NCBI GenBank assembly: GCA_018402765.1
Contig: JAGYIE010000002.1
Coordinates: forward strand, 248,001-312,000
Source: Vicingaceae bacterium
GTDB taxonomy: Bacteria; Bacteroidota; Bacteroidia; Flavobacteriales_E; Vicingaceae
Direction of reading: 5' to 3'
Length of the DNA stretch: 64,000 nt
Shown in pieces: positions 6,899 through 46,133 of this stretch. A program made the translations under genes and the position numbers. Below the pieces are notes generated by a model. The model searched no databases. It had not been told where the DNA came from and saw only the letters and a program-made list of their open reading frames with translations. Every line of letters starts with the position of its first letter. The first letter of the stretch is position 1.

Positions 6899-6899
6899 A

Positions 6900-7505
6900 A
6901 TGGGAGATCGCATAGCATCACACATTTCTAAACTACTCCATCCTATTTTCATGCCGCTTCTTGGGGTAGCATTACTTTTTACATTGCCTACATTTATAGG
7001 GTTTATGACTCATGAAAAGTTGAAAATTATCATCGTATTTTATGTTACTATCAATACCCTTATTCTACCATTGCTTTTTAGTTTAATTCTGAAATGGAAA
7101 GGAATAATTAATAGCCTTAAAATGGAAACCGTGGAAGAAAGAAGATGGCCATATCTTTTTAGTATTTTAATGTTTATAGTTTGCATTTGGCTTTTCAAAG
7201 AAATAAACGTAAACCCTCTATTGATCAACTTTTTGTTAGGTGCGGCAGTTTCTATTTTTATACTTTTGATGACTAGTTATTTTCATTTCAAAATGAGCGC
7301 TCATTTACTAGGCATTGGCGGATTAGTTGGTGTAATTTCAGTAGTTGCAATCAAAGACTATATAGACATTTCTACTCCTCTAATTATCCTCATTCTACTA
7401 AGTGGAGCACTAGGAACGGCTAGATTGCAGCTTAGAGCACATAAGCCAATAGAAATTTATAGTGGATTCTTAATCGGGTTTTTGGTGCAGTTATATTATT
7501 TATAA
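6900..7505 (+). CDS. Polytopic membrane protein, possibly PAP2-like
   Basis: A 201-aa integral membrane protein with about six hydrophobic helices and short loops. The segment SAHLLGIGGLVGVIS (about 131-145) and the C-terminal ARLQLRAHKPIEIYSGFLIG resemble the last two motifs of PAP2-type phosphatases (conserved Ser/His in SxHxxG and Arg/His near the end), but the N-terminal KxxxxxxRP motif is not evident, so catalysis is doubtful. It abuts rpoN (one base) and overlaps the convergent yraN by 6 bases. Similar small membrane proteins follow rpoN in other Bacteroidota as far as I recall; no function is established. Confidence 0.75.
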   Translation: MGDRIASHISKLLHPIFMPLLGVALLFTLPTFIGFMTHEKLKIIIVFYVTINTLILPLLFSLILKWKGIINSLKMETVEERRWPYLFSILMFIVCIWLFKEINVNPLLINFLLGAAVSIFILLMTSYFHFKMSAHLLGIGGLVGVISVVAIKDYIDISTPLIILILLSGALGTARLQLRAHKPIEIYSGFLIGFLVQLYYL

Positions 7506-11635: not shown

Positions 11636-11947
11636 CAGGTTCCTGCCTTTTCAAAGTACTTTCCAACTTTTAATTGATTCAAGTCGTCTTCCTATTATAT
11701 AAGGCTGCTTGATAGAATTAGATTGAGGCTGATTAATCTGCTATAAAATCAGCTTGAGCAACCTTTTTAAAAACATTCGTCGTTTTAAAAAAAGAAGTTA
11801 TTCGAAGTTATCGAATTAACTTTCTAATTTCTATATATTTGTTATGTTATGTTAAAATGTTCTATTTTTAATAACCTTCTGAAAGTTAATTAAATAATCA
11901 TTTTTAACATTAATTTTTTATTTAGTAAGTACTTAGCTCACGATACA
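11636..11947. other. Intergenic region, 312 bp, between metG and the giant adhesin gene
   Basis: No coding potential seen. It contains an imperfect hairpin around 11728-11755 (GCTGATT paired with AATCAGC) that could weakly terminate metG but has no clean T-run, and a promoter-like -7 box at 11834-11841. The remainder is AT-rich leader of about 100 bases in front of the giant gene. Confidence 0.5.
11834..11841 (+). promoter_or_regulatory. Predicted -7 box (TATATTTG) for the adhesin operon
   Basis: TATATTTG fits the Bacteroidota -7 consensus exactly. It implies a 5' leader of about 100 bases. A convincing -33 TTTG is not present at 17-20 bases upstream, so an activator may be required. Confidence 0.45.
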
Positions 11948-23900: not shown

Positions 23901-24313
23901 ATTTGTGGACTCCACCAACAAACTTGAGTAACCCAGCCACTGAAAGACCAACTTCTGATACACGTGAATCAAGAACATATACACTTACAGTAACCGATAC
24001 AAATGGATGCACAGGAACTGACACAATGCGAGTATTGTATCAAGAGCCCATTACTTTCCCATCAGGATTCACTCCAAATGGAGATGGGAAAAATGATGTA
24101 TGGAACTTAGACTTTATTGAAGCCTTTCCAAATACATCGGTTCAAGTATTTAACAGATGGGGGCAAGTTGTTTTTGAAGCAGGAAAATATTCTACACCAT
24201 GGGATGGAAGTTATGATGGAAAAGCAATTCCTAGTGGAACATATTACTACATCATTGATTTAAAAGATGACAAATTTGAACCTTTCACAGGACCAATTAC
24301 AATAATGAGATAA
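11948..24313 (+). CDS. Giant secreted SprB-repeat adhesin with gliding-type (CHU_C) type IX sorting domain
   Basis: A 4121-residue cell-surface protein of over 400 kDa, like SprB of gliding Flavobacterium. Signal peptide 1-23 (ends NAIA); a non-repeat head to about 230, including a beta-rich part starting FWIGTTSAWADGSNWSD; a Gly/Lys linker (KKGGGGNGNK); about 48 SprB-like repeats of 70-80 residues from 250 to 3865; PKD-like spacer domains; and from about 4035 a CHU_C domain (FTPNGDGKNDVW ... VFNRWGQVVFE ... PSGTYYYIIDL), the type B signal for export by T9SS. Each repeat has an early Cys-Asn/Phe-Gly-DG, a central YxYLWS, a xGLxAGTYTVTVTD and a second Cys. It is followed 2 bases later by a PorP/SprF gene. 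A role in gliding, attachment or cell-cell contact is inferred; ligand unknown. Confidence 0.95.
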   Translation: MKRLYSYLTLVIALTIVSHNAIARDLFWIGTTSAWADGSNWSDSKNGSPINTIPAASDNVFFTTVNTKVTVIEFKHADCKNFTVLNNGQLLLKGSPNSLLRIGGDIEITSNTKIINEGTIELNAKKNTTYNFSPSLFISALKINNKAKATFKSDLKIEGKITHQSGDLIAKANSIFCELYEFITPQQKSVQLDKGNLFVNNKTLTPGDAIYIDFSKIIVQNPLTSRLTSNGGTKKGGGGNGNKQATQVFTTVTPPTCNGLSDGQATVDSIRTTPGSTGPYVYTWSRAGFPTVTGVTATGLSNGTYLLRVLDQGDNTTLGVFVNVLEPDPIFSNITKTDETCFGACDGTASAFPIGGTPISPGSTYNYLWSTTATTASITGLCVGTYTVTITDGNGCTNIDNVIVGGPSVVTPNATSVNVACKGDNNGSATAAPTGGVAPYSYLWSDAGGSTTATAVGLSPGTYTVTVTDNTTCTGTQSVTITEPATLLSASITVNSTVTCIGNTDGIITANGIGGNSPYTYLWSNASTQKTLLNIAAGTYTVSVTDANNCTKVDQVTLNSPIPVVPVASVISDVSCFGFSDGEATVTSSGGTPGYTYVWSNAATTPTISGLLAGTYTVTATDAINCQGITQVTISEPTLLSTSIINNSGSTCFGGSDGSAEASPTGGTAPYSFAWSNSATTAVITGLSAGTYTVTVSDLNLCTSTAQITIAQGTQISPNVITTNILCRGQNNGTATSTPTGGAGSYTYLWSDAGASTTASITGLAVGTYTVTVTDGNSCTDTETINITEPATGINASINILNNLSCNGINDAVIQATGTGGTPGYTYLWSNTSTSRTQLNLGPGTFTVTITDANLCTDTESVTLNYPSPIVPVAVVDADVSCFGFTDGQATVSATGGTPGYSFNWSNNQTTATITGIAAGTYTVTVTDINNCDAITQVTIIEPPLLTGTILNQSDALCFNGTDGSIEVDGLGGTPPYNFLWSNATATGLNTGLTAGTYTVTITDINNCTAVTAATIGQGAQISATSNVLSNPLCNGGNQGAGEVIVAGGVPGYTYLWSNAATTPIITGLQAGTYTVTVSDFNLCTETTQFTLTEPAAITTTITTTNNPQCAGLSAASATVSPSGGTPAYTFIWSNAATTPTISSLSAGTYTVTVSDANNCSSIDQVTINQSPVITTAVTSTDADCFGNSTGTANVVAGGGAGGFSFAWSNAGTTASINNLSAGKYFVTVSDLNGCTALDSAVIQEPTLLTTVTNKTDASCDVSADGSGTVIASGGTPNYTFLWTGGFTTSTINNLNPGKYFVTVTDLNNCTTIDSVEILQANPVILSVDSTLNVTCNGGNDGGAYILTSGGSAPYTYLWNNAQTSDTLKNVTAGTYTLIVTDANTCTDQISVTVTEPIQLTSSITASNVNCFGGSDGQAFVTATGGTTPYNYLWSNTATTDTIKNVTAGKYIVTITDANNCIQLDSVTVTEPLQIQITVSTTDALCKDSANGTATATAINGTAPYTFAWSNSTTGSNINGLLAGTYTVTVTDLNGCTSVNTGVIAEPTAITSSTTATDASCSGIADGSITLTVAGGSPSYSFLWSNSSTTQNQAAVSSGKYFVTITDINGCVKVDSATVNDGVTINASLDSISNVDCNGGNNGFIRVLGIGGTNPYTYSWSNSATTNSITGLTAGAYTVTITELNGCFKDTTINITEPNAISTSITSINVSCFGENDGEAFATVNGGLSPYIYLWSNTATTDTIKNLTAGKYIVTITDANNCIQLDSVTVTEPLQIQITVSTTDALCKDSANGTATATAINGTAPYTFAWSNSTTGSNINGLLAGTYTVTVTDLNGCTSVNTGVIAEPTAITSSTTATDASCSGIADGSITLTVAGGSPSYSFLWSNSSTTQNQAAVSSGKYFVTITDINGCVKVDSATVNDGVTINASLDSISNVDCNGGNNGFIRVLGIGGTNPYTYSWSNSATTNSITGLTAGAYTVTITELNGCFKDTTINITEPNAISTSITSINVSCFGENDGEAFATVNGGLSPYIYLWSNTATTDTIKNLTAGKYIVTITDANNCIQLDSVTVTEPLQIQITVSTTDALCKDSANGTATATAINGTAPYTFAWSNSTTGSNINGLLAGTYTVTVTDLNGCTSVNTGVIAEPTAITSSTTATDASCSGIADGSITLTVAGGSPSYSFLWSNSSTTQNQAAVSSGKYFVTITDINGCVKVDSATVNDGVTINVLADSIDNVVCNGENNGFIRVAGIGGSLPYTYLWSTTATTDTIGGLTAGAYTVTITDINGCFKDTTIDITEPLLLAVSAATTNVSCNGIADGTATASGSGGIAPYTFNWSTTQIGPSITGLLAGSYTVTVTDNNGCTATDTFTITPQSSFIYLDSITNNNCFGDCNGELGIFALSGGTPPYSFVWSNLATTPFINGLCAGNYTLTITDANNCDSIVTYTITEPTQLTTTTTTTNSNCTVCDGIAVATVSGGTPTYSYNWLDASLTPIGQTTDTAKGLCSGVYNVAITDLNGCRDTITANVIDNNAPIVSTSSTDVTCFGANDGTATVNSPCLLTTCSINWLTITGTPIGQTATTAIGLNAGTYIAEVSDISGCVTLDTVTINSPTQIIPNDGIVPVSCSAITLCDGSAFVKPIGGSAPYTYLWAGNPTGQGTDSISGLCVGAYTVTITDNSNCDTVVTINVSQGGNYSATINSTDETCANTCDGTAEVILAGITAPPHTYLWNPVPPGGQQGNRILTGLCAGNYSVTVTDIAGCTTTASTTIGSQNSLVANESFTNETCGGTCDGTATVNPVGGTGPYTFTWTPTPTVGQGTNTASGLCPGSVELLIADANGCDTIIRFNIGSSSPILPNETVANATCNGNCDGLIILAPTGGGSSNYIYTWTPVPPNGQGSATASGLCAGNYSVIISDGIGCDTTLAITINEFSAIISGISSIDASCNSACDGEASISPSGGTSPYSYLWSTTATSDTVKNLCAGNYFVTITDANNCSVIEPVVVNEPLALAATTSTTPSTCNFCDGIASVSPVGTGPFTFDWFDNNLSPLGVNTAIAINLCSGNYFVDVTDQTTGCTDRFSASISDLGGETVVISQTDENCVGSCDGTATATFNCSTANCFVEWFDANTGLGIGQNTPTAVALCAGNYFVEVTNDSGCISIEPVSINSPAIIFANATSIDATCANACDGSASVAPTGGSGTFSYIWTPAPGSGQGTANASGMCPGNYIIEIIDGIGCNLIENITIGSPTALSATFTSIEPGCGLSNGSITSIITGGTAPYTFQWFDASNTLLVGQTSSTINSITAGIYIAKVTDLNGCEDFFSFNLSNVNGPTVTLDSLTNLTCSGDNNGAIFITTSAGTAPYTFNWFPFGQPFEDLNGLQAGDYTVEVTDANGCISFETYTVTEPTRMLASFNLSDANCGACDGAAEIIMTGGIAPYTYRWSNGSDSTRALDLCAGIYVVEVTDGNGCEETFNLAINNLGGITNLVASTTNATCNGSCDGTATLNLIGGTAPYNFYWPHDGSTTSSLTNLCAGNYFAQVTDSNGCMSVTNVTIGEPVKWTVNPSITAVNCNSFPCDGSILLNVTGGIAPYNYNWGPITLADTNYVDGLCVGKYTVDISDAGGCSQSFEFTVSNTAIQIDPTPTATDESCFGSCDGSLIANISSTLVDYQWLDANNNAIAAPNTDGQGLCAGIYTLQLTSIADGCQYFESITINSPDPLTLTQPLVSNVNCENDCDGQISVNAFGGKLDYTFIWNDPNTQISNVASGLCAGSYVAIVTDNNGCTSVINATVNALSSITVSVIDTTNVGCSSVCEGAAEIEVNGGIAPYTVTWQGGQSGLIATGLCFGPNLVTITDASNCSITETVFIGARDTVIALAGNDTLFCDNGTAVLKGATLGSGVTRAEWYNVPSYTLLSRNLDTSFSMNSKGVYQYAFIATNGLGCNDTTIKTITVTSSPLIDAGSNVRIFDDEIAQLNPLGGQPSFTYLWTPPTNLSNPATERPTSDTRESRTYTLTVTDTNGCTGTDTMRVLYQEPITFPSGFTPNGDGKNDVWNLDFIEAFPNTSVQVFNRWGQVVFEAGKYSTPWDGSYDGKAIPSGTYYYIIDLKDDKFEPFTGPITIMR
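16241..18632 (+). repeat. Tandem 903-bp units inside the adhesin gene (2 full copies plus a 586-bp partial)
   Basis: Copy 1 spans 16241-17143, copy 2 17144-18046, copy 3 is partial from 18047 to 18632. The period is exactly 903 bases, 301 codons or four SprB repeats, so the reading frame is kept. Copies 2 and 3 appear identical; copy 1 differs from them at only two points I could find (16300 region Val/Leu codon and a synonymous change in the codon before EPLQ). The surrounding repeats are diverged, so this amplification is recent. An assembler could also have mis-sized it. Confidence 0.93.
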
Positions 24314-35007: not shown

Positions 35008-35028
35008 AATAAAATCAACATAAGAGAT

Positions 35029-35059
35029 AAAAAAGGAGCTGAATTCAGCTTCTTTTTTT
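35029..35059 (+). terminator. Rho-independent terminator after glmS
   Basis: AAAAAAGGAGCTGAATTCAG continues into CTTCTTTTTTT: an A-rich side, the palindrome AGCTGAATTCAGCT and a T-run. Symmetry means it may work for both strands. Confidence 0.85.
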
Positions 35060-35079
35060 GTAAAGACTCTCCCGTACTG

Positions 35080-35275
35080 AAATAAGTTGACACTAAATCG
35101 ACTTATTAATGAAGAAAGCAGAACAAAAAAAGAAACACCGTAGCCAACCCGATTACAATTTAGGCTTTAAATTGGACGTAGTATCATAGGTAGAAAAAGG
35201 CGAGATGACATACAAACAGGCACGAAAGGCCAACGGTATATAAGGACGACAGCACAAAAAACGAGGTTAAAATAG
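35080..35275 (+). pseudogene. Decayed IS3-family transposase OrfA fragment with a possible terminal repeat
   Basis: From ATG 35109 the frame reads MKKAEQKKKHRSQPDYNLGF, then KLDVVS, a TAG stop, VEKGEMTYKQARKANGI, a TAA stop and a GRQH remnant. The parts YNLGFKLxVV, VEKGEMTYKQA and GI-GR are typical of the DNA-binding OrfA of IS3-type elements in Bacteroidota. At least two stops and a likely frameshift (GRQH where QGRST is usual) show that it is dead, and OrfB is gone. Just upstream, AATAAGTTGA and TCGACTTATT around 35082-35107 are near-inverted. It marks the left edge of the accessory island. Confidence 0.8.
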
Positions 35276-35291
35276 GTAGTTTTAGATACCC

Positions 35292-35305
35292 ACCTAATAT
35301 ACCTA
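35292..35305 (+). promoter_or_regulatory. ACCTA-N4-ACCTA direct repeat upstream of the phosphatase gene
   Basis: Two ACCTA half-sites at 35292 and 35301 are exactly 9 bases apart, in CCCACCTAATATACCTATTA. The same arrangement stands at 44386-44399 and, with one mismatch, at 44286-44299. The motif ends 60 bases before the phosphatase start. A DNA-binding site is proposed; the protein is unknown. Confidence 0.5.
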
Positions 35306-35365
35306 TTAAATTAACCTTCTTCCATTAGTAATAGTTATAATTGATACATTTTTAAGCTTTTAATT

Positions 35366-36277
35366 ATGATTGATTTAATTGGCGATATACATGGGCACGC
35401 AGACCAACTAGAAGAATTACTTCATAAATTAGGTTACGAAAAACGCAATGGTACATACACTCATCCTGAAAGAAAAGTTCTATTCGTAGGTGATTACATT
35501 GATCGTGGACCAAAAATCAAGGAAACGCTTGAGATTGTGAAATCAATGGTTGAAAGTAAAAATGCCATCGCTCTAATGGGCAATCATGAATACAATGCTA
35601 TATGCTTTCATCTATTGAAAGAAGATGGTGGACACCTCAGGGAACATAGCATTAAAAACGTAAATCAACACTGGAAAACAATAGAAGCTTTTCGCAATAA
35701 TCAGGAGGAATACAACGACTATATAGACTGGTTCAAAACTTTACCACTGTATTATGAAACCGAAAATTTTAGAGCAGTTCACGCATGTTGGGATAATAAA
35801 AACATTGAATTTTTAAGACAAACACTGATCAATGACAGATTGACGGATGAATTGATTTATAAATCAGTAAAAAAGGGAACAAGACTCAATGATACAATTG
35901 AAGAAACCTTAAAAGGCAAAGAAATAAAAATGCCACAAAATCAGTTTTTCTATGATAAAGATGGATCCAAACGCTCAGAAATAAGGATTAAATGGTGGGA
36001 AAATCCTGCAATAATGACTTATAAGTCTATAAGCGTGGAACCTATTGAGCATTTAACGGAACAACAAATAGAATTGTCAGAACTTAAGTCGCTTGATTTT
36101 TACAACGAAAATGAAAAAACAGTATTCTTCGGCCATTATTGGCTAAAGGGAGAACCCAAACCTTACAAAAAGAATGTGTGCTGTCTAGACTATAGTGTAG
36201 CAAAGGAGGGCAAACTAGTGGCATATAGACTTAATGAAGAAGCTAAGCTAGACAGCAAAAACTTATTTTATGTTTGA
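35366..36277 (+). CDS. PPP-type metallophosphoesterase (Ser/Thr phosphatase or ApaH/PrpE-like)
   Basis: A 303-aa calcineurin-like phosphatase. The two-metal site is intact: GDIHG (6-10), GDYIDRGP (42-49), GNHE (72-75), HACWD (about 146) and GHYW (about 257). Relatives hydrolyse phosphoproteins or dinucleoside tetraphosphates (PrpE); the substrate here cannot be told. It lies 57 bases before the McrB gene on the same strand, in an otherwise restriction-type island, and could be co-transcribed with it. The pairing is suggestive only: standalone PPP phosphatases are common in bacteria. Confidence 0.88.
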   Translation: MIDLIGDIHGHADQLEELLHKLGYEKRNGTYTHPERKVLFVGDYIDRGPKIKETLEIVKSMVESKNAIALMGNHEYNAICFHLLKEDGGHLREHSIKNVNQHWKTIEAFRNNQEEYNDYIDWFKTLPLYYETENFRAVHACWDNKNIEFLRQTLINDRLTDELIYKSVKKGTRLNDTIEETLKGKEIKMPQNQFFYDKDGSKRSEIRIKWWENPAIMTYKSISVEPIEHLTEQQIELSELKSLDFYNENEKTVFFGHYWLKGEPKPYKKNVCCLDYSVAKEGKLVAYRLNEEAKLDSKNLFYV

Positions 36278-36334
36278 TTGAACTTTGATGAAAAACTAAC
36301 AAGAAAATATTAATAATAACTGCACTTTAAGAAA

Positions 36335-38536
36335 ATGAAAGATTTAGAAGATATAATTATTGATTGTCAATTGTCACTTGAAGAAATAACTAAGAAATAT
36401 AACACAGACTTCAACCAAATTGTTGAACAAGAAAAGGATTGGCTAAAGAATCTTGAAGAAAAGACATCGCTTTTATCAGAAAACTCGCGTATTGAAATTG
36501 AATATGTAATTACAAAACTTAAAGATGTAGATTATACTTTTAAAGAAACGGATACAGAAAAACTATCGAAATTCATCAGCCAAATAAATAGTATTGTTGG
36601 TATTGCAAATCGGATAAACAACTTCAAAGAAGGCACAATACTCAACAATAAGCAAAGTCTTCAACTATTTAAATTATTTAACAAAATAAAATCGACTAAT
36701 CGTTTTAGTGAATTTCAATACACTCTGAACAATAATTTAAATTCATTTATAGTCCATCTTTTCTCAGTAGTAAAGCATTGTCAATTACCTGAAAAGTATC
36801 CAATATACTACCGATTTTGGAAAAACATATTAGGCGAGGTATTAAAGAAAGCCGATGATTATGATAGCTTTTGTGAGTTCTACCTCACTATTCATTCACC
36901 AAAACACCTAAACTTCGCAGGATACTTTGGAACGATTGGAACAATTCTAGCAAGAAAGATTTCGGAAAAACAAGTCATTAAAGAAGAAGGTGATAACAAT
37001 TACAATTACATCAGAAGTAAAATACTAAATATCCACTATTTTGATATAATCACTGGATATAAACGGAAGCCTAATTATTATCTCTTAGATTCGAAATATG
37101 GAGTAAACAATGACATTGATGTATTTCCAAAAATGCTAGAAAGCAATATTGTTTCGGTTGGTTTCGCTTCTCATCTTGACTTAAGTGACTTCTATTTAAC
37201 TGATGATGCTGAAATGGTCGAATATCTTAAAGAAGAAAATGAAGAAGTTAATTCATGCAATGCACTAAGGCTATTTATGAATATCAGAGCAGGAGACAAG
37301 GTTGCTATTAAAACCAATGGGTCTTCGAAAGGTAAAAAGGGTATTTTGTCAATTGTTGGAATCTTTGAAGTTATTCAAAATGAAGATGGTGAAGTATACA
37401 GCTACGATCCTGATGGCTTGGGTCACACATTATCTGTCAAAGTTGTAGATGCTCCAATATATGAAGAGTTTGAACTAGGAAGGTATAATTCAACTGTTCA
37501 CAAACTATCTAAACAAGAACACATAAGCCAAATTTTCAATCGAATTAATAAAAATAGAAGTCTACTTCTTGAAACGAAAGAAAAATTTCAAAATACAAAT
37601 TTTGAAAATTTAAGCCTAAACACAATTTTATATGGACCTCCTGGCACAGGAAAAACTCATTTACTAAAAAATAAATTTATCGAGATGTTTACATCCCCAC
37701 CAAATGGCATTGGTGAGAAAAAAGAGCGATTTGAGTTTCTAACATTTCATCAATCTTACTCTTATGAAGATTTTATTGAAGGAATCAAACCCGAACTTTC
37801 TGGAAGTGATGTTTCTTATAAAATAGAAGAAGGTATATTTCAAAAAATGTGTACTAGAGCAAGAAATGATTCCTCAAATGATTATGCAATTTTTATTGAT
37901 GAAATAAATAGAGGCAATATTTCTTCAATTTTTGGAGAATTAATAACTCTTATTGAAGATGATAAACGAGAAGGAAGGCCCAATGAAATAAAAGCTACTC
38001 TTCCCTACTCTAAAAAAAAATTTTCAGTACCAAAAAACCTTTATATCATCGGAACTATGAACACTGCAGACCGCAGTGTCGAGGCTTTAGATACTGCTCT
38101 TAGGAGAAGATTTTCATTTATTGAAATGAATCCAGAGCCTGAGAAATTAAATACTGATGAATTTAAATGCACAGGAATTGATTTAGAAGCTTTATTAAAT
38201 ACCATGAATGCACGAATAGAAAAACTACTTGATAAGGATTATTGTATCGGGCACTCCTACTTCATGACTATTAAAAATAGACAAGAACCAATAGAAGAAA
38301 TCAAAAGCATTTTCCAGAATAAAATTCTCCCTCTTTTACAAGAATACTTTTACGGTGATTGGGGCAAAATACTTTTAGTAATTGGTGAAAAATTTGTAGA
38401 AACTAAGAAGAATACCGTCAAGTTTCTTTCTACAGATAGTTATGAAGACTTTAAAGAATATGAAGAAAAACCGATTTACAATTTCACCAGCAAGTCTAGT
38501 TGGACATTAGATTATTTCAAATCTATTTATGAGTAG
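36335..38536 (+). CDS. mcrB: McrB-like AAA+ GTPase with EVE/PUA-type reader domain, type IV restriction
   Basis: A 733-aa translocating motor of a modification-dependent restriction system. Residues 1-250 are helical and unassigned. About 265-365 resemble an EVE/PUA-like modified-base reader: SNIVSVGFASHLDLSDFYL, AGDKVAIKT, KGILSIVGIFEVI. The AAA+ module has Walker A GPPGTGKT at 434-441, the McrB signature FHQSYSYEDFIEGIKPE, Walker B/sensor FIDEINRGNISSIFGEL (from 520) and IGTMNTADRSVEALDTALRR. McrB proteins hydrolyse GTP. It overlaps mcrC by 8 bases (ATGAGTAG), a normal operon arrangement. Confidence 0.92.
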   Translation: MKDLEDIIIDCQLSLEEITKKYNTDFNQIVEQEKDWLKNLEEKTSLLSENSRIEIEYVITKLKDVDYTFKETDTEKLSKFISQINSIVGIANRINNFKEGTILNNKQSLQLFKLFNKIKSTNRFSEFQYTLNNNLNSFIVHLFSVVKHCQLPEKYPIYYRFWKNILGEVLKKADDYDSFCEFYLTIHSPKHLNFAGYFGTIGTILARKISEKQVIKEEGDNNYNYIRSKILNIHYFDIITGYKRKPNYYLLDSKYGVNNDIDVFPKMLESNIVSVGFASHLDLSDFYLTDDAEMVEYLKEENEEVNSCNALRLFMNIRAGDKVAIKTNGSSKGKKGILSIVGIFEVIQNEDGEVYSYDPDGLGHTLSVKVVDAPIYEEFELGRYNSTVHKLSKQEHISQIFNRINKNRSLLLETKEKFQNTNFENLSLNTILYGPPGTGKTHLLKNKFIEMFTSPPNGIGEKKERFEFLTFHQSYSYEDFIEGIKPELSGSDVSYKIEEGIFQKMCTRARNDSSNDYAIFIDEINRGNISSIFGELITLIEDDKREGRPNEIKATLPYSKKKFSVPKNLYIIGTMNTADRSVEALDTALRRRFSFIEMNPEPEKLNTDEFKCTGIDLEALLNTMNARIEKLLDKDYCIGHSYFMTIKNRQEPIEEIKSIFQNKILPLLQEYFYGDWGKILLVIGEKFVETKKNTVKFLSTDSYEDFKEYEEKPIYNFTSKSSWTLDYFKSIYE

Positions 38537-39839
38537 TTCCAAAAATATATTACAAGTTTTTGAACATCATACTTTAAAGGTTGATGAAGAATCCACTTTT
38601 AAATTGGTTCATTTTAATGCTCTAGAAAAGTATGGATATAAGACAAAGGAAAAGTTCTTTTCCGTTGGTAATAAACGAATCAAGTTCAACAATTATGTAG
38701 GTGTGATTCAAGTTAAGAATCTTACAATTGAAATACTTCCAAAAGCTGATAATAACGGTGAAGATAAAGATGCAAAAGAAAAATGGCATAATGCATTAAT
38801 TGCAATGCTAGAAGAATGCAAGCTTATAAAACTTAGCACAATCTCCAATGCAAAATTAAAGCTCAAATCTGCATCCATTTTAGACCTTTATTATGACTTG
38901 TTTTTATCTGAAACTGAAACGATTTTTAAACATGGACTAAGAAAGAACTATAGACCTATTAAAGAGAACCTGAATAAGGTTAAGGGCAAAATTCTTTTCT
39001 CCAGTCACATTCGAAAGAATGCCTTTCATAAGGAAAGATTCTTTGTAGAGCATAAAACATATGATGCCGATAATAAACTAAATCAAATATTAATCAAGGC
39101 TTTGCTTGTTTTAAAAACCATTGCACACAACCCAAATCACGATATTAGGATTAACAAACTACTCTTAAACTTCGAAGGTGTTTCGGAAGATAGCCCAACA
39201 GAAAAATGGTTTGATAAATTAACGTTTGATAGAAACACAGAACGATATAGGCAAGCAATCACTTTAGCTAAACTTATAATTTTAAGATATTCACCAGATT
39301 TAAAGGGCGGAAACGAAAACGTATTAGCAATTCTGTTTGACATGAATATGCTTTATGAAAACTACGTTTATCGTAAATTAAAAGCATTGCAAAATGATTC
39401 CGACAATCCAATTGTTGCGGTTAAAGAACAAACAAGAATGCCTTTTTGGGAAACAAGAGGATTAAGAGCTGATATAATTGTAGAAACGGCAGATAAAAGA
39501 CTAGTGATAGATACAAAGTGGAAAGTATTGAAAGACAATAAGCCTTCTGATGCTGACCTGAAACAAATGCTTGTTTACAATCTTCACTATAATACCGACT
39601 TGAGTATTTTACTTTATCCTAAAACCACTTTAGAATCATCTAGTAAGAAACCATTTAAGAATAAAAATTTTAAAAATTTAAATTGTCAGGTCGCATTTAC
39701 TGATCTATTCAACGAAGAGGGGAAACTTGAGAGTAATTTGGGTGACAAAATTTATAACGAATTGCTTAAAAAAGAACTAATTAATCTTTCTCATTTTACA
39801 GTTGCTAATATTAGAAATTCTATCTTTAAACTGTACTAA
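38529..39839 (+). CDS. mcrC: McrC-like endonuclease subunit, type IV restriction
   Basis: The nuclease partner of McrB. The 436-aa protein begins with a McrC N-terminal domain (VGVIQVKNLTIEILPKAD) and contains HGLRKNYRPIKENLNKVKGK, a typical McrC central motif. The PD-(D/E)xK site is visible at Asp315 (LRADIIVE) and Asp328-Thr-Lys330 (VIDTKWK). It starts inside the last 8 bases of mcrB. Together they should cut methylated or otherwise modified incoming DNA, so phage defence is the likely role; modification preference is unknown. Confidence 0.92.
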   Translation: MSSSKNILQVFEHHTLKVDEESTFKLVHFNALEKYGYKTKEKFFSVGNKRIKFNNYVGVIQVKNLTIEILPKADNNGEDKDAKEKWHNALIAMLEECKLIKLSTISNAKLKLKSASILDLYYDLFLSETETIFKHGLRKNYRPIKENLNKVKGKILFSSHIRKNAFHKERFFVEHKTYDADNKLNQILIKALLVLKTIAHNPNHDIRINKLLLNFEGVSEDSPTEKWFDKLTFDRNTERYRQAITLAKLIILRYSPDLKGGNENVLAILFDMNMLYENYVYRKLKALQNDSDNPIVAVKEQTRMPFWETRGLRADIIVETADKRLVIDTKWKVLKDNKPSDADLKQMLVYNLHYNTDLSILLYPKTTLESSSKKPFKNKNFKNLNCQVAFTDLFNEEGKLESNLGDKIYNELLKKELINLSHFTVANIRNSIFKLY

Positions 39840-39847
39840 TTTTTGGG

Positions 39848-39873
39848 GGGTGCATACAACAACAATTGCACCC
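39848..39873. other. Hairpin in the convergent junction after mcrC
   Basis: GGGTGCA (39848-39854) pairs with TGCACCC (39867-39873) around a 12-base loop. It lies between the stop codons of mcrC and the leftward 63-aa gene. A weak terminator role is possible, but no T-run follows on either strand. Confidence 0.45.
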
Positions 39874-39883
39874 TTACCACCAA

Positions 39884-40075
39884 TTAATCTTCTTTATCAG
39901 GATCCCACATACCTCTATCCATCTCACTATCTGTAATCCCCTCCTCTATAAAAAGCCTTTGCTCACTCGTAAGATGAGGATACATCGCCTGTACCGCTTT
40001 CCTTTTTTTACTGCGTTTCCCTGCTCGTGAATTCAGCCATAACTCATATTCAGCCTGTGTTAGTGGTATTTCCAT
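39884..40075 (-). CDS. Small hypothetical protein, copy A (63 aa)
   Basis: Function not recognised. A 63-aa protein with a basic centre (SRAGKRSKKRKAVQAMYPHL) followed by an acidic tail (TDSEMDRGMWDPDKED). The pattern, a helical opening LTQAEYELW, a basic stretch and LTSEQRxFIEEGI, is reminiscent of small phage-borne proteins, but I can name no family. It has a near-identical copy at 41908 (differences at Leu/Phe47 and the penultimate Glu/Asp). It follows the 183-aa gene by 89 bases in the leftward reading direction. Confidence 0.7.
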   Translation of the reverse strand: MEIPLTQAEYELWLNSRAGKRSKKRKAVQAMYPHLTSEQRLFIEEGITDSEMDRGMWDPDKED

Positions 40076-40164
40076 AGAGACTATTTTCTTGCTTAAAGTT
40101 GATCATCTTGTTAGTAACATATCATTCTGTTTGGTTAGTTAACATCTGATTACTTGGCCAAATG

Positions 40165-40716
40165 CTATTCCCAAGGATTATAATCCTCTTGATCCATTTT
40201 TCCCCGCGGAGCACGTGATCGAGCAAAATTTTTATCACTGAAAAGCTTTTCTTTAAACTCTTCGAAGGGCATTGTACTTGCACTGTCCAATTCCCACCTG
40301 TCTGCAGCCGCCATTCGAGCATAACTATTATTGATCATCGTTTCTGACCAAGTGCGCGCATCTTCTGGGTCAATGCCTTTCACTACTGCTAATCTAGCTG
40401 CCATTTCTTCTTGAAATCGCTGCTTTTCTTCTTGAATTTCTTTCAAAATTTTAAGCGCTATTTTAGTGTACTCCGTTTCTTCGTTTGCTTGAGCTGCTTT
40501 TATTTCTCTTTTGCAAAACTCCAGGGCTGAATTATCCGTAGTTGACCCACATGAGCTAATTGGAGAAACTCCTAACAGCTCACGCTTTCTATTGAGTTTA
40601 GCTGTATGTTCTTCACTCCATGGATCTTTGTCTGAAACAAACATGTAATTGAGTTCTTCATCAAATAGCTCCTTGTATAAGTAATGGGCACCTTTGTATT
40701 TTAATATTTCCTTCAT
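40165..40716 (-). CDS. Hypothetical helical protein, copy A (183 aa)
   Basis: No family recognised. The 183-aa protein is charged and mostly helical, with a likely coiled coil in the middle (KIALKILKEIQEEKQRFQEE, about 85-104), and a conserved-looking tail segment GIDPEDARTWSETMINNSYA. It has no signal peptide or membrane segment. An identical protein is encoded at 42189. Being in both copies, its dose would be doubled. It precedes the 63-aa gene and follows the chimeric 71-aa ORF in reading order. Confidence 0.75.
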   Translation of the reverse strand: MKEILKYKGAHYLYKELFDEELNYMFVSDKDPWSEEHTAKLNRKRELLGVSPISSCGSTTDNSALEFCKREIKAAQANEETEYTKIALKILKEIQEEKQRFQEEMAARLAVVKGIDPEDARTWSETMINNSYARMAAADRWELDSASTMPFEEFKEKLFSDKNFARSRAPRGKMDQEDYNPWE

Positions 40717-40751
40717 TTTTGTAAAATAAAACGTGTGCTAAAATGTTCCTT

Positions 40752-40967
40752 TTAGTCCAGATTGAGTTTAAAAAAGTTCAAAATAGAATCCCAGTCTTTG
40801 TATTCATTAAACACTTCTCGTTCATAATCCCACCCAAAATGCAAATGTTTTCCTGAAAATTCAGCAGCAGATTTAACTGCCATAGCCATTTTGTTTTCAT
40901 TTAGTTGAGATTTTACTTTTTTCATATTCTCAACCATTAATTTTCTATTTTCGTTTATGTTTGCCAC
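40752..40967 (-). CDS. Chimeric 71-aa ORF made from a new N-terminus and the nucleotidase tail
   Basis: The first 33 residues (MANINENRKLMVENMKKVKS, then QLNENKMAMAVKS) are unique to this place; the last 38 are identical to residues 256-293 of the 293-aa nucleotidase encoded at 42776. The join lies at 40869-40870, the edge of the duplicated block, and keeps the reading frame. The HAD catalytic motifs are all upstream in the full protein, so this fragment cannot be an active phosphatase. It could be a by-product of recombination, or a small protein of its own. Confidence 0.65.
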   Translation of the reverse strand: MANINENRKLMVENMKKVKSQLNENKMAMAVKSAAEFSGKHLHFGWDYEREVFNEYKDWDSILNFFKLNLD

Positions 40968-41011
40968 AATACCTTCTTTTTTATTAGTACTTTATTTATA
41001 TATATATGTAA

Positions 41012-41464
41012 TTATTTTAAAAATTTAACTGCATTTTTGTACTTTTCAATACGAATATAATCGATTTTAGTTGGGGATTGTATCCTACTAATATCCATAT
41101 TATGTTTTAAATCTGCTAACTTAACCAATCTTGCAATTTTATTTGATTTAACAGTTGATAAGTATCGCTTATAATCAGATTCATTAGAACCAAATCCCTT
41201 TGGTTTTGTTATAGCAAGTACCGCATCTGATATTACATTTCCAAATAATTTTCTAATATCTGATATTTTTAGATTAGTATCTTCAACCGAATCGTGTAAT
41301 AATGCAACTACTGCCAATTCTGTGGTTTTTGCATTGAATCCGCCAACGAAGTTAAATACCGATAGTATGTGCCCATTAAAGTAATCAACACCCGCTCTAT
41401 CTTTTTGACCGGAATGTGCTACCTTTGATAATTTGTATGCTTTTTTTATAATTTCAATATCCAT
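41012..41464 (-). CDS. Small RelA/SpoT-type HD-domain hydrolase
   Basis: A 150-aa single HD domain of the kind found in SpoT and in small alarmone hydrolases (Mesh1). Visible residues are AHSGQ (16-20), GH (31-32), HDSVEDT (57-63) and KLADLKHNM (about 115-123), which together supply the metal-binding HD site. No synthetase, TGS or ACT domain is attached. It would remove pyrophosphate from ppGpp or a related nucleotide; this is inferred from the family. It sits in the unique 1033 bp between the two duplicated blocks, downstream of the 144-aa gene by 12 bases. Confidence 0.85.
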   Translation of the reverse strand: MDIEIIKKAYKLSKVAHSGQKDRAGVDYFNGHILSVFNFVGGFNAKTTELAVVALLHDSVEDTNLKISDIRKLFGNVISDAVLAITKPKGFGSNESDYKRYLSTVKSNKIARLVKLADLKHNMDISRIQSPTKIDYIRIEKYKNAVKFLK

Positions 41465-41476
41465 TAAATCAAAATT

Positions 41477-41911
41477 TTAAAATTTTGTAAAGTAGAAGTA
41501 ATGATTTTCATTACTTCCGGTAATGTCCTTTGCAAGAATTTGATAACTCCAATTATCCCCCAATCTTTGAGCTATTGTATCTGCCATTAATTTAAACAAC
41601 TTACCTCGCTTTTCATCTGCCGGAATAAACATAAAATACTCTCTATTTGAGTTTTTTACAATACCAATTACTGCATTTAAAAGTTTTCTTTTCAATTCGA
41701 AAATAGAAACATCAGTGGGTATTTCCATATCATAAGCAACCCATTCAATTCGTCTTGCAGGAACATAATCATCATTAAACCAATTAAAGCTATCACTAGT
41801 TGCTTTACCTTTTACTTCTTTTACAAATGATATTATTAACTCATTCGTATTTGTAAGTGTTACCGCCCAATTGTAATCTAAAATTTTAACTTCGTATGTC
41901 ATACCAATCAA
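41477..41911 (-). CDS. Hypothetical protein (144 aa)
   Basis: Not recognised. It has aromatic-rich beta-type segments (FNWFNDDYVPARRIEWVAYDM) and ends in ENHYFYFTKF, with no signal peptide or membrane helix. ATG at 41911 or 41902 are both possible; the second is immediately next to the border of the duplicated block (41903) and avoids overlap with the 63-aa copy B gene. It lies 12 bases upstream of the HD hydrolase and probably forms a pair with it. Confidence 0.7.
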   Translation of the reverse strand: MIGMTYEVKILDYNWAVTLTNTNELIISFVKEVKGKATSDSFNWFNDDYVPARRIEWVAYDMEIPTDVSIFELKRKLLNAVIGIVKNSNREYFMFIPADEKRGKLFKLMADTIAQRLGDNWSYQILAKDITGSNENHYFYFTKF

Positions 41912-42099
41912 TCATCCTTATCAGGATCCCACATACCTCTATCCATCTCACTATCTGTAATCCCCTCCTCTATAAAAAACCTTTGCTCACTCGTAAGATG
42001 AGGATACATCGCCTGTACCGCTTTCCTTTTTTTACTGCGTTTCCCTGCTCGTGAATTCAGCCATAACTCATATTCAGCCTGTGTTAGTGGTATTTCCAT
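41908..42099 (-). CDS. Small hypothetical protein, copy B (63 aa)
   Basis: Near-identical to the 63-aa protein at 39884, differing at residue 47 (Phe here, Leu there) and at the end (DKDD here, DKED there). The sequence differences cluster in the 3' part of the gene, next to the edge of the duplicated block. Function is unknown; see copy A for features. It lies downstream of the 183-aa copy B gene by 89 bases, the same spacing as in copy A. Confidence 0.7.
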   Translation of the reverse strand: MEIPLTQAEYELWLNSRAGKRSKKRKAVQAMYPHLTSEQRFFIEEGITDSEMDRGMWDPDKDD

Positions 42100-42188
42100 A
42101 GAGACTATTTTCTTGCTTAAAGTTGATCATCTTGTTAGTAACATATCATTCTGTTTGGTTAGTTAACATCTGATTACTTGGCCAAATG

Positions 42189-42740
42189 CTATTCCCAAGG
42201 ATTATAATCCTCTTGATCCATTTTTCCCCGCGGAGCACGTGATCGAGCAAAATTTTTATCACTGAAAAGCTTTTCTTTAAACTCTTCGAAGGGCATTGTA
42301 CTTGCACTGTCCAATTCCCACCTGTCTGCAGCCGCCATTCGAGCATAACTATTATTGATCATCGTTTCTGACCAAGTGCGCGCATCTTCTGGGTCAATGC
42401 CTTTCACTACTGCTAATCTAGCTGCCATTTCTTCTTGAAATCGCTGCTTTTCTTCTTGAATTTCTTTCAAAATTTTAAGCGCTATTTTAGTGTACTCCGT
42501 TTCTTCGTTTGCTTGAGCTGCTTTTATTTCTCTTTTGCAAAACTCCAGGGCTGAATTATCCGTAGTTGACCCACATGAGCTAATTGGAGAAACTCCTAAC
42601 AGCTCACGCTTTCTATTGAGTTTAGCTGTATGTTCTTCACTCCATGGATCTTTGTCTGAAACAAACATGTAATTGAGTTCTTCATCAAATAGCTCCTTGT
42701 ATAAGTAATGGGCACCTTTGTATTTTAATATTTCCTTCAT
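42189..42740 (-). CDS. Hypothetical helical protein, copy B (183 aa)
   Basis: Amino-acid sequence identical to the protein at 40165. No family recognised: charged, helical, with a probable coiled coil near 85-110. It lies 35 bases after the nucleotidase stop in reading order, which suggests that RCK-nucleotidase, 183-aa and 63-aa formed the ancestral operon. Perfect identity between the copies means that the duplication is recent or that gene conversion keeps them alike. Confidence 0.75.
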   Translation of the reverse strand: MKEILKYKGAHYLYKELFDEELNYMFVSDKDPWSEEHTAKLNRKRELLGVSPISSCGSTTDNSALEFCKREIKAAQANEETEYTKIALKILKEIQEEKQRFQEEMAARLAVVKGIDPEDARTWSETMINNSYARMAAADRWELDSASTMPFEEFKEKLFSDKNFARSRAPRGKMDQEDYNPWE

Positions 42741-42775
42741 TTTTGTAAAATAAAACGTGTGCTAAAATGTTCCTT

Positions 42776-43657
42776 TTAGTCCAGATTGAGTTTAAAAAAG
42801 TTCAAAATAGAATCCCAGTCTTTGTATTCATTAAACACTTCTCGTTCATAATCCCACCCAAAATGCAAATGTTTTCCTGAAAATTCAGCAGCACCTCTTG
42901 CCGTTCTGTCGTCAATTAAATAATCCCCTATTAATAAATCTTTTCGGTGCGATATAATTAATTTTTTCTCAAATGATGCTCCAAACTTATCCGCTATCCA
43001 TAGCCGCTTGTCGATCCAAGCAGAAGGATTGTCCCAAGGAGCAGTAGTCAAAATAAAGATATCATATCTATCGCTAGCCAATAACTGATTTACAGCATCA
43101 ATAGCTCCAGCCATAGGAGGAAGATCTTTGAAAACACCAACAATTTCGTCAGGTTTATTTGTAAAGCTACCGTCTTTATTATCCGAGTGTATTTCGGCAC
43201 CTTTTGCTAAGTCTGCTAAAACACCATCCATATCAATGTAAATAATCGGCTTTAGCTTATTTTTCTTTTTAATACTCCATGACTTAAAAAGCAACCTATC
43301 ATTCAATAAATCAGTTTCAATGCCTAGCATAGTCAGTAAATTTCGATGTTCATTCGATTGGTAAACCGAGTGAATTTGAGAAACACCCAACTCTAGTAGC
43401 ACAGAACATGTTAATAGGCTTGCAGCAATATCATTTTTTATAAACAACAACACAACATCTTGCTCCGTTATGCTAAACGAAGAACTATAGAGTTCGCGAT
43501 CAGTAGCGTCAGCACACATCACTAGACTAAAGTCATCTGCAAAAATTTCTACGTTTGAGTCTGAATTATCAATACCTATAACTTCTTCACCTTGAAGAAT
43601 TAATTCTTTTGCAAAGCAAGCAGAAAAGGGATTAATCCCCACAATAAAATATCTCAT
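42776..43657 (-). CDS. Fusion of TrkA-N (RCK) domain and HAD 5'(3')-deoxyribonucleotidase
   Basis: A 293-aa two-domain protein. Residues 1-115 resemble the nucleotide-binding RCK domain of potassium channels and transporters: VGINPFSACFAKELILQG, an acidic residue ending strand 2 (GID, residue 30) and ADATD at 49-53; the Gly-rich loop is degenerate (GINPFS). Residues 136-293 form a HAD phosphatase of the 5'-nucleotidase type: DMDGVLADL (142-150, nucleophile Asp142, acid Asp144), TTAPW (204-208), a Lys around 239 and DDR (249-251). All HAD motifs are intact. Fusions of these two domains are not something I know; substrate and ligand are unknown. Confidence 0.82.
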   Translation of the reverse strand: MRYFIVGINPFSACFAKELILQGEEVIGIDNSDSNVEIFADDFSLVMCADATDRELYSSSFSITEQDVVLLFIKNDIAASLLTCSVLLELGVSQIHSVYQSNEHRNLLTMLGIETDLLNDRLLFKSWSIKKKNKLKPIIYIDMDGVLADLAKGAEIHSDNKDGSFTNKPDEIVGVFKDLPPMAGAIDAVNQLLASDRYDIFILTTAPWDNPSAWIDKRLWIADKFGASFEKKLIISHRKDLLIGDYLIDDRTARGAAEFSGKHLHFGWDYEREVFNEYKDWDSILNFFKLNLD

Positions 43658-43690
43658 TTGGTAACTTTCTATTTAAATAAATCTTGTATT

Positions 43691-44182
43691 TTATTCTATT
43701 GTAATCAATTTAACAGTTTCTTCAACAGCAGCTATAAACACATCAACAGGCACTCTATGACTGCCCTCATAATAAGCGTAATTAAACGAACTGTTTCTTT
43801 GAGTATTAAAGTACTTTATTACATCTTGCCCATTTATAACCGTATCTGATTTACCCAAGTATACATTATTCTTGTTTTTATTTAACTTGATACTTTTCAC
43901 ATCAAGCTCTATAGATCGGTTAACTACAGCAGGATTAAATAACACCGTTTGTATATCTAAGGAGCTACCTAATAAATAAGCGAGGTACCCACCCATTGAT
44001 GAACCAACAATAATATCAGGTGGGTTTGATTTCAATTTCTCAATTATGGTATTGACTTGCTTAGCGTCTCTGTAATTAATGGTAGGTAAATAAGCCTCTT
44101 TAAAGTATTCTCTTATCCAACTAATTTTAGGGTTTATCTCTGAAATAGTGGATTCCAAACCGTGTAAATAGGCAATTTTCAT
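43691..44182 (-). CDS. YqiA-like alpha/beta hydrolase (esterase)
   Basis: A 163-aa small serine hydrolase similar to YqiA/UPF0227. It begins MKIAYLHGLEST, has the nucleophile elbow GSSMGGY (Ser62), an Asp-containing segment near GKSDTVI and a C-terminal EGSHRVP histidine. Family members hydrolyse short-chain esters. It is 33 bases upstream of the RCK-nucleotidase gene on the same strand and probably the first gene of the leftward run. There is no signal peptide. Confidence 0.85.
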   Translation of the reverse strand: MKIAYLHGLESTISEINPKISWIREYFKEAYLPTINYRDAKQVNTIIEKLKSNPPDIIVGSSMGGYLAYLLGSSLDIQTVLFNPAVVNRSIELDVKSIKLNKNKNNVYLGKSDTVINGQDVIKYFNTQRNSSFNYAYYEGSHRVPVDVFIAAVEETVKLITIE

Positions 44183-44270
44183 TATAGAGGTCTTAAAGTT
44201 ATTTATTTATACTAGTATGCTAATTTTTAAAGTTATTTTCTTTTGACTATAAACAAGTCATTTTTTAAGT

Positions 44271-44299
44271 CAACTAAGTGAAATCACCTAAACTACCTT
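44271..44299 (+). promoter_or_regulatory. Upstream copy of the CAACTAAGTGAAAT ... ACCTA motif
   Basis: CAACTAAGTGAAAT (44271-44284) is followed by ACCTA (44286) and ACCTT (44295), 9 bases apart. The same 14-mer recurs at 44361-44374 with the ACCTA pair at 44386-44399. The whole element was duplicated about 90 bases apart, in the leader of the next gene. Confidence 0.55.
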
Positions 44300-44360
44300 C
44301 TCTACATTAAAGCGATATCAAACACTAAAACGACCTTTTGTTTTTATGATTTAAATTGTG

Positions 44361-44399
44361 CAACTAAGTGAAATTGGGTAATCCCACCTATTCTACCTA
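44361..44399 (+). promoter_or_regulatory. ACCTA-N4-ACCTA direct repeat overlapping the -33 region
   Basis: CAACTAAGTGAAAT, then the small palindrome TGGGTAATCCCA, then ACCTA at 44386 and 44395 (spacing 9). The second half-site ends 22 bases before the -7 box TACTTTTG (44422-44429), the place of an absent -33 element, as expected for an activator site. Confidence 0.6.
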
Positions 44400-44421
44400 T
44401 TTAAGGAAAGAATTGGAATTG

Positions 44422-44429
44422 TACTTTTG
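44422..44429 (+). promoter_or_regulatory. Predicted -7 box (TACTTTTG) of the membrane protein gene
   Basis: Exact match to TAnnTTTG, 24 bases before the ATG at 44453. There is no TTTG at the -33 position; the ACCTA repeat lies there instead. Confidence 0.6.
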
Positions 44430-44452
44430 CCCCATTATAATCTACTTCATAC

Positions 44453-45730
44453 ATGAGAAAAACATTCGCGGTAATACTCTTCATTCATATTGGCCTTTCA
44501 GGAATTTGCTCTACATCACCGGTAAAATTAGATACAGCTACAATTTATCGTAAAGCAAGAAGTTTAGTTAAAGACCCTCGAATTATACGGTCTAGCTGGC
44601 TTTTCTTTAATAACATACAACACATCAATGATTCTACTTTTTATTATAACCCCGAAGGCACACTTCATCTCTTCAAAGTAAAAATTGATACCGCTACCCA
44701 TGTCGAAAAGATCAGCAAAAGCATTTATCATGGTCACAATTTTAGTCGAAAGCTTTATTTGCACAATTCTATACTTTATAGCCTTGGTGGTTCTGGTCTT
44801 TTTGGAGAAACAGCACACTTGCTTTGCTTTAATGAACCTTTATCAGAATGGCTCATAGCTCCAATACAAGATATGCCAATAAATGTTGGCAGCGTAATTA
44901 ACTCATGGTTAAATGCTGATACACTATCGGTTATCTATCTATCGAAACTCAAAGACTCCCTAGTATATGCCAAAATAAATCTAAAAACAAAACGATTTCA
45001 ACGGATAGGTACAATAAGAAACAGCGAAAATGAATCTTATTCTTTTGGGGGTGGATATGAAATTTATAGGAATGAGAAATATGCGATTTTAGAACTCCCT
45101 CTGGGGGAACGATATCAAAATAAATGTCGTTACGAAATATTATCCTTACAAAATGTAGAGCTTAATAGAGCTTTAGAGTTAGAAAATTTACCCTGTATTA
45201 ATGGAAATTCAGTCATCTACATAAAAGAAGATACGCTAGTTTACAGAAGTACTACAGGAGAGCAAAAGAAATATTTTATTGATGACTTAAACGTTATTAG
45301 TAAAATAAACTATTCTAAAATATATCAATTAAATTTTCAAAATAAAAGTGATTATAAAGCTGGGTTATCTGCCCTTTTACTGATTATTTGTGCACTTATT
45401 TTTATCTCCTTTGTTATTTTCAAAAAAAGAAGACATTTTAGTCACTTACCAAAAGAAGAGCGTATAGATGACACTGAAAAAGAAATGTCAACTATTGAAG
45501 CTCGTCTAAATAATTTAAAAGGCCAAACAATAAGTAGAGATGAACTAGATGATATTTTTGCAATTACTCATCAATCAGCAGACACTATGAAATCCAGTAG
45601 GAGTTTAAAAATACGAAAGATTAACGAGCGCGCGAATAATATTACGATTACCCGAATACGAAATGAAAAAGACAGACGTTACTTTGAATATATAATTAAT
45701 ACTACTTCTAATACTACTTCATCCACATAA
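44453..45730 (+). CDS. Single-pass membrane protein with periplasmic beta-type domain and possible cytoplasmic winged helix
   Basis: Function not recognised. A 425-aa protein with a signal peptide (1-20), a periplasmic part to about 300 made of repeating short strands (YYNPEGTLHLFKV, SLGGSGLFGETAHLLCF), one membrane helix (about 303-324, LLLIICALIFISFVIF), then a 100-residue cytoplasmic tail. The tail's ISRDELDDIFAITHQSADTMK followed by KIRKINE and ITRIRNEKDRRYFEYII looks like a winged helix with a D-R-R-Y/F wing, a guess. If so, this would be a membrane-bound one-component sensor. It ends overlapping the convergent TM2 gene by 17 bases. The doubled regulatory motif upstream suggests controlled expression. 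Confidence 0.72.
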   Translation: MRKTFAVILFIHIGLSGICSTSPVKLDTATIYRKARSLVKDPRIIRSSWLFFNNIQHINDSTFYYNPEGTLHLFKVKIDTATHVEKISKSIYHGHNFSRKLYLHNSILYSLGGSGLFGETAHLLCFNEPLSEWLIAPIQDMPINVGSVINSWLNADTLSVIYLSKLKDSLVYAKINLKTKRFQRIGTIRNSENESYSFGGGYEIYRNEKYAILELPLGERYQNKCRYEILSLQNVELNRALELENLPCINGNSVIYIKEDTLVYRSTTGEQKKYFIDDLNVISKINYSKIYQLNFQNKSDYKAGLSALLLIICALIFISFVIFKKRRHFSHLPKEERIDDTEKEMSTIEARLNNLKGQTISRDELDDIFAITHQSADTMKSSRSLKIRKINERANNITITRIRNEKDRRYFEYIINTTSNTTSST

Positions 45731-46133
45731 TCAGCTTGCTGTTATTTTCATACACTGAAATATCAGGTGCCGTCAATAAGGCAATCACATCAACTAGTGG
45801 CAATAAGCCGAACCCACCTCCTAAAGTTAATGAATATGCAATAGGAACATTCGGCTTAGTGCCTAAATAAATGCGATGTACGCCAAAGTGACCTAAAAAA
45901 ATACCGAGCAGTATCGCTTTTAGTTTTTTGTGTTTTATAGGAGAAATACTGTCGATAGGAATATTCAATTGATTGTACAGCTTCATTACCTCTGCATCAT
46001 CCAATTGTTGAATAGCGAATTCTACTTCTTGAAACTGGCTGTATGAAATAGAAACAGCAGAAGAAGCGGCTGCTCCTTCTGCTGCAAATAAGCCAATAAT
46101 AATTGGCAAAATTGTTCTAAAAAACGCTTTCAA
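45714..46133 (-). CDS. TM2-domain membrane protein
   Basis: A 139-aa protein with a signal peptide or first helix (about 1-23), a short periplasmic or linker segment ([20 protein letters not shown]) and a C-terminal TM2-like module: two hydrophobic helices around the polar turn with [17 protein letters not shown] and [13 protein letters not shown]2 domains are of unknown function; many are near stress or secretion genes. It is convergent with the preceding gene (17-base overlap) and begins next to the superoxide dismutase stop codon. Confidence 0.82.

Follow-up and report, generated by a model that had tools for sequence, protein, structure and literature searches.

What does an RCK lobe, best known from potassium regulators such as KtrA and TrkA, do when it is joined to a nucleotide-degrading enzyme? 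The question is raised by a gene within a 64,000-nucleotide stretch of a Vicingaceae bacterium genome (the window). The original prediction was that this gene encodes an RCK (TrkA-N) domain fused to an intact HAD 5'(3')-deoxyribonucleotidase, and that the protein might be a nucleotide-gated enzyme with an antiphage role. Each part belongs to a known family, and the domain combination is real, rare, conserved and carried within a mobile two-gene unit.

The fusion protein and its domains

The open reading frame (Table 1) starts with ATG and contains no internal stop, and the plus strand in the same frame is full of stops. Both domains were recovered by Pfam well above the gathering scores (23.8 bits for TrkA_N and 24.8 bits for NT5C), with TrkA_N at residues 3-114 (E = 3.7e-12, 47 bits) and NT5C (PF06941) at residues 174-279 (E = 4.6e-13, 49.9 bits). 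A profile built from the four known fusions matched solved KtrA chains over positions 2-116 (E = 2.8e-18) and the human, mouse and Staphylococcus 5'(3')-deoxyribonucleotidases over positions 172-269 (best E = 7e-14), and on these matches the predicted domain identities hold. All four HAD motifs are present (D142xD144GV, T204/T205, K239 and D249-D250), with D142, D144, K239, D249 and D250 invariant in an alignment of 22 sequences, which bears out the predicted intact active site.

AlphaFold modeled the HAD half with pLDDT mostly at 80-97, and residues 25-95 at less than 50, with only three alignment rows covering the RCK half. Searching with this model, Foldseek returned the HAD fold of the NT5C family (E = 2e-9); KtrA was one of the weaker matches. 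The model does not confirm a Rossmann fold at residues 25-95, and the RCK assignment comes from the sequence profiles. Judged from its sequence, the protein is a genuine in-frame fusion of an RCK N-lobe to an intact NT5C-family HAD, and the predicted assignment of the latter to the NT5C-type enzyme class is well supported. A frameshift or assembly artefact was ruled out as the source of the fusion, given four homologues with a common linker and purifying selection on both halves.

Table 1 Features of the window and locations of the related fusions
Feature	Position	Strand	Remarks
RCK-HAD fusion, 293 aa	42776..43657	-	Residues 1-117 RCK N-lobe, 118-136 linker, 137-293 NT5C-type HAD
RCK/TrkA_N N-lobe, residues 1-117	43307..43657	-	Degenerate glycine loop GINPFS and Lys74
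HAD 5'(3')-deoxyribonucleotidase domain, residues 137-293	42779..43249	-	All catalytic residues kept; C-terminal insertion of phage type
P183 (183 aa), partner gene, product predicted helical	42189..42740	-	35 bp downstream of fusion, co-directional
Mobile two-gene unit	42001..43727	-	91% DNA identity to MAG casp40-mb.291 (L037:4256-5980); flanking genes differ
Accessory island between glmS and sodA	35008..46133		11.1 kb
McrB-like and McrC genes, modification-dependent restriction system	36335..39839	+	Neighbor
Small RelA/SpoT-type HD hydrolase, 150 aa	41012..41464	-	Between repeats; E = 2.9e-13
Direct repeat copy 1, 991 bp, 99.6%	41903..42893		Fusion 3' end and P183
Direct repeat copy 2	39879..40869		Second identical P183 (40165-40716) and tail of HAD fragment
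Truncated C-terminal HAD fragment, remnant	40755..40946	-	Matches fusion residues 231-293
Fusion, second locus of same genome (G000)	L021:8803-9681		52% identity to window fusion
Fusion, MAG casp40-mb.291	L037:4324-5205		89% identity to window fusion
Fusion, MAG K_MB250 (locus same as G406)	L038:7980-8855		53% identity to window fusion

Recurrence and conservation of the fusion

Full-length fusions with the same domain order and linker were identified in four copies from three genomes. The original prediction was to fall if the pair proved a single occurrence without defence neighbors; instead, nuclease genes are found in the cluster at each of the four loci. Both halves of the protein are under purifying selection, with dN/dS ranging from 0.07 to 0.27. 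Between the window and L037 copies the ratio is 0.19 overall (RCK half, 0.25; HAD half, 0.12), and between the L021 and L038 copies it is 0.135 (RCK half, 0.27; HAD half, 0.07). The RCK half thus evolves faster than the HAD half, yet is constrained.

Beyond these copies the fusion is scarce. A search of 395 genomes of the class revealed it in G000 and G406 only, and another draw of 395 genomes across the phylum returned G000 again and no further fusion genome. Searches at the family and order levels yielded no additional fusions, the remaining matches being HAD-only or KtrA. Two linker peptides compared with ~85,000 species genomes recovered the L037 and L038 copies only, a search that fusions with different linkers would escape. 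We also scanned viral contigs, phage records and plasmid records, where all matches were HAD-only or RCK-only; the idea of a virus-borne fusion was dropped, as these scans never gave both domains in one protein. A defence gene of broad use would not usually be so rare, which counts against a defence reading.

A mobile unit shared with a helical partner

A homologue of the partner gene P183 lies co-directionally within 10-35 bp of the fusion at all four loci and encodes 183-193 aa. Gene order is not fixed: in the window and L037 copies P183 comes second, 35 bp after the fusion, and in L021 and L038 its homologue comes first, with gaps of 12 and 10 bp, respectively. Homologues of P183 were present in 3 of the 395 class genomes, namely both fusion genomes and G122, where a truncated copy occupies the same glmS site next to an IS3-like transposase. 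The structure model of P183 is all-helical, at low confidence, and comparison with Pfam, NCBIfam, PADLOC, PHROG and PDB sequences gave no match of note. Given this conserved adjacency, the fusion and P183 probably form one functional unit.

As to mobility and REARRANGEMENT, window positions 43727-42001 correspond to the L037 segment over 1.73 kb at 91% DNA identity. Because this identity persists even though glmS is saturated at synonymous sites between the two genomes, the pair must have moved horizontally, and the unit has been transferred between species. The surrounding island lies where the original prediction had placed the fusion, in an accessory setting beside McrBC: it fills the glmS-sodA gap with 11.1 kb, versus a gap of about 0.4-0.8 kb in most relatives with glmS and sodA adjacent, and McrBC lies inside it. 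No RNA families were found in the island and no tRNA genes in the window.

The same gap is an accessory-gene hotspot, with different cargo in L129 and, beside glmS, in L037 as well. At L129, the 3' end of glmS is duplicated (6427-7114 and 11552-12238) and a short recombinase-like open reading frame ('GYRRISKIFNDEGLKTPRG') lies nearby, which suggests an element that inserts at glmS and regenerates the end of the gene.

Within the window, two 991-bp direct repeats (99.6% identical) flank the HD hydrolase and a 144-aa open reading frame, and this arrangement suggests that related cassettes recombined recently. L021 likewise holds fragments, one of them C-terminal and from the HAD half (L021:10676-10948), the other N-terminal and from the RCK half (L021:15523-15645).

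A degenerate RCK lobe

Relatedness of the N-terminal lobe to KtrA is clear, with a profile comparison against the KtrA proteins of relatives giving a probability of 99.5% and the RCK half being 30-37% identical to them. Nucleotide-dependent RCK domains carry the motif GxGxxG[17-18]xE/D, and a role has been described for the glutamate of their PE motif (PMC6957272). The GxGxxG loop is found in 19 of 19 KtrA proteins of relatives versus none of the four fusions, in which the second glycine is replaced by N, T, D or T and the third by S, A, S or A. Of the full motif, the fusions keep only the terminal acid. The PE motif with its Mg-binding glutamate is likewise missing, its place being taken by ND in all four copies, with the position still acidic. 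The position of KtrA Gly79 is a lysine in all four (Lys74), and the RCK C-lobe is absent.

Other positions have been retained or have become fixed anew. D30, the acid ending strand 2, is kept in every fusion, and the position of KtrA E125 is still acidic (D120). Six residues (K74, C84, Y99, D116, N119 and D120) are fixed across the four fusions and differ in KtrA. We infer from this pattern that the lobe would have a changed pocket or surface and is not a dead domain.

The original prediction had read the GINPFS stretch as an RCK-type nucleotide loop; an RCK domain is indeed there, but the loop is degenerate and not a normal RCK loop. It had also raised nucleotide gating, which in RCK regulators would be through NAD(H) or ATP. 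With both GxGxxG and the PE motif lost in all four fusions, KtrA-type ATP/NAD gating is unlikely, and the replacement of Gly79 and the missing C-lobe point the same way.

A phage-type HAD half, probably a phosphatase

Standalone HADs on viral contigs are 52-61% identical to the HAD halves of the fusions, and the best bacterial HAD-only matches in a first tree were at 44-52%. One viral homologue is a 161-aa gene without an RCK part, located on a large phage contig where its neighbors resemble PhoH and lipoproteins. In a further tree, the fusion HAD halves are monophyletic (0.933) and have as their sister a pair of standalone bacterial HADs (G765 and G761; 0.832); this group sits with a phage clade (0.861). 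Ahead of the terminal DW motif, most aligned members of the clade, including L233 and L234, have an insertion that is absent in other bacterial HADs. Phylogenetic placement thus assigns the fusion HAD to the phage branch of the NT5C family, with transfer possible in either direction.

Members of PF06941 include phage dTMP phosphatases that serve genome base substitution, and for one of them, Dtm of phage PBS1, dTMP phosphatase activity has been proven biochemically (PMC12697855). Since Dtm belongs to the same Pfam family, dTMP or dUMP is the best guess for the substrate of the fusion, whose HAD half would be an intracellular, Mg-dependent enzyme that removes the 5'-phosphate of deoxynucleoside monophosphates. 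We consider dNMP phosphatase activity of the fusion likely.

Neighboring genes

The nuclease and defence set differs at each fusion locus, comprising McrBC, HNH, DUF2779 or a PDC-S27 ATPase, and, because the nucleases vary from locus to locus, their closeness to the fusion could stem from common integration hotspots and need not mean that they work together. An HNH nuclease and a small protein of 111-121 aa are common to L037, L038 and L021. The L038 cluster carries a DUF2779 protein, a member of a presumed 3'-5' exonuclease family with a PD-(D/E)XK-like domain (PMC3985635), and the ATPase of L021 matches the PADLOC defence-candidate model PDC-S27 (E = 1.6e-171). PADLOC-DB models gave no match to the fusion or P183. 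No CARF domain was matched in the fusion, and among the window neighbors the sole match to a Cas model was McrC, at a weak E = 0.047. By eye, the HNH nucleases seemed to be preceded by an EVE/PUA-like domain, for which profiles gave no support.

The alarmone-type HD hydrolase named as a neighbor in the original prediction does adjoin the fusion and has a RelA/SpoT match, but it lies inside the rearrangement formed by the direct repeats and was not found at any other examined locus. Its best PHROG match is phrog_990 (E = 6.4e-42), a longer phage protein that is matched over part of its length only. Elsewhere in the window, positions 11948-24313 encode a 4121-aa repeat protein with a C-terminal signature that by eye is of gliding-motility type and with long, apparently identical internal repeat blocks.

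Proteins at L037, L038 and L021 have an N-terminal module in common and differ in their C-termini (ankyrin, TPR or short). This module of ~125 aa ('DKDNFLDIHLPSV...'; L038:10325-11224, L037:331-2775, L021:11011-14715 and 17585-18484) has no Pfam model. A second family with a constant N-terminus ('MAKDYTKY...'; L041:7164-9575, L042:5973-9251, L040:5182-6030, L242:5255-7278) adjoins or sits near standalone HAD nucleotidase genes, and one member has a weak match to PADLOC model PDC-S57.

In G030, G086 and G761, a standalone HAD gene of the family immediately precedes a DUF2779 gene, and in G765 it lies near one. The DUF2779 gene comes straight after the HAD gene in three genomes, at L023:8434-10914, L041:9626-12048 and L234:291-2147. 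Such a pair may form a two-enzyme DNA-degrading unit.

Discussion

We propose that the locus is a horizontally moving accessory unit that combines a dNMP phosphatase, an RCK lobe not using ATP or NAD, and a role in phage or mobile-element conflict, a proposal that, taken with all its parts together, is tentative. Participation of the fusion in such conflict, considered by itself and inferred from its setting, comes close to an even call, leaning slightly against. The RCK lobe would probably be dimeric, like other RCK N-lobes, and in its degenerate state could serve assembly or sense P183 or another ligand (other than ATP or NAD) at an altered pocket with the conserved Lys74. Nearby nucleases might release dNMPs, which the phosphatase would convert to nucleosides, so that they could not be re-used for phage DNA; we infer this pathway mainly because the pairing of standalone HADs with DUF2779 recurs. 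A more far-reaching version, in which the fusion and P183 are an undescribed antiphage system whose RCK lobe senses an infection cue, controls the phosphatase and blocks dNMP recycling, seems unlikely to us.

Several other explanations bear on the same evidence. The HAD half clusters with phage auxiliary enzymes, in a family that holds phosphatases for phage base substitution (PMC12697855), as would be expected of a housekeeping or phage-derived nucleotide-pool enzyme, moron-like cargo that cleans or rebalances dNMPs without a specific defence role; however, the strict coupling to P183, the nuclease-rich variable islands and the RCK fusion itself argue for a more specific role, making this reading somewhat unlikely. 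If the RCK lobe instead bound NAD(H) or ATP and switched the nucleotidase on and off in defence, one could invoke the common binding of nucleotides by RCK domains, the retained acids at positions 30 and 120 and the CARF-HAD protein Chp, in which a sensor and a HAD phosphatase form an antiphage effector (PMC12715507). The four-fold loss of the glycine loop, Gly79 and the PE motif, together with the missing C-lobe, renders this improbable.

P183 and the fusion might also neutralize each other as a toxin-antitoxin or effector-immunity pair, with the truncated copies as remnants of module exchange. Consistent with such a pair are two genes whose order is swapped between loci, the truncated pieces of HAD and RCK that accompany intact copies at two loci, and neighboring families whose N-terminus is constant and whose C-termini vary. 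However, no known toxin or antitoxin domain was found in P183 and phosphatases of this class are not generally known to be toxic, so we hold this pairing to be quite improbable. Least credible is interference with the host potassium system, as a decoy or modulator whose RCK lobe joins host KtrA rings or binds KtrB: the similarity to the KtrA of relatives would allow it and the host genome retains its own intact KtrA, but none of the inspected genes at the fusion loci is a transport gene and a phosphatase domain would be superfluous for such a role.

Should our proposal of a mobile conflict-related phosphatase be true, nucleotide-depletion immunity would be widened from dNTPs to dNMPs, an ion-channel sensor fold would have lost its nucleotide loop and been recruited to control a soluble enzyme, and a bacterial accessory gene would have been built upon a phage-type enzyme. 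The adjacency of DUF2779 exonucleases and standalone HADs also provides a concrete biochemical hypothesis, that of an exonuclease plus a nucleotidase.

In the literature searched we found no report of a TrkA-N/RCK fusion to a deoxyribonucleotidase or of an antiphage RCK fusion, and the closest comparisons are with the separate parts and with systems of similar logic. Residues 2-116 belong to the same sequence family as the RCK (KTN) N-lobe of KtrA and TrkA (PF02254), from which the fusion differs in lacking GxGxxG, Gly79, the PE motif and the C-lobe and in being joined to an enzyme. With NT5C enzymes (PF06941; human cdN/mdN and phage PBS1 Dtm) it has in common the HAD fold, as modeled, and the catalytic residues, but differs in its N-terminal RCK lobe and in a short C-terminal insertion that one branch of phage homologues also has. 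Chp, the CARF-HAD protein of type III-A CRISPR (PMC12715507), is comparable only in how it works, as a ligand-sensor-type domain combined with a nucleotide-acting HAD phosphatase; unlike the RCK of the fusion, its sensor is a C-terminal CARF domain, and it has four membrane helices and depends on CRISPR. The dCTP deaminase, dGTPase and Clover systems (PMC12265719) would share the logic proposed here, deoxynucleotide limitation during infection, although they act on dNTPs through HD or deaminase folds and the fusion putatively acts on dNMPs. By likeness of function, Chp and Clover may thus be regarded as precedents for the logic of the fusion.
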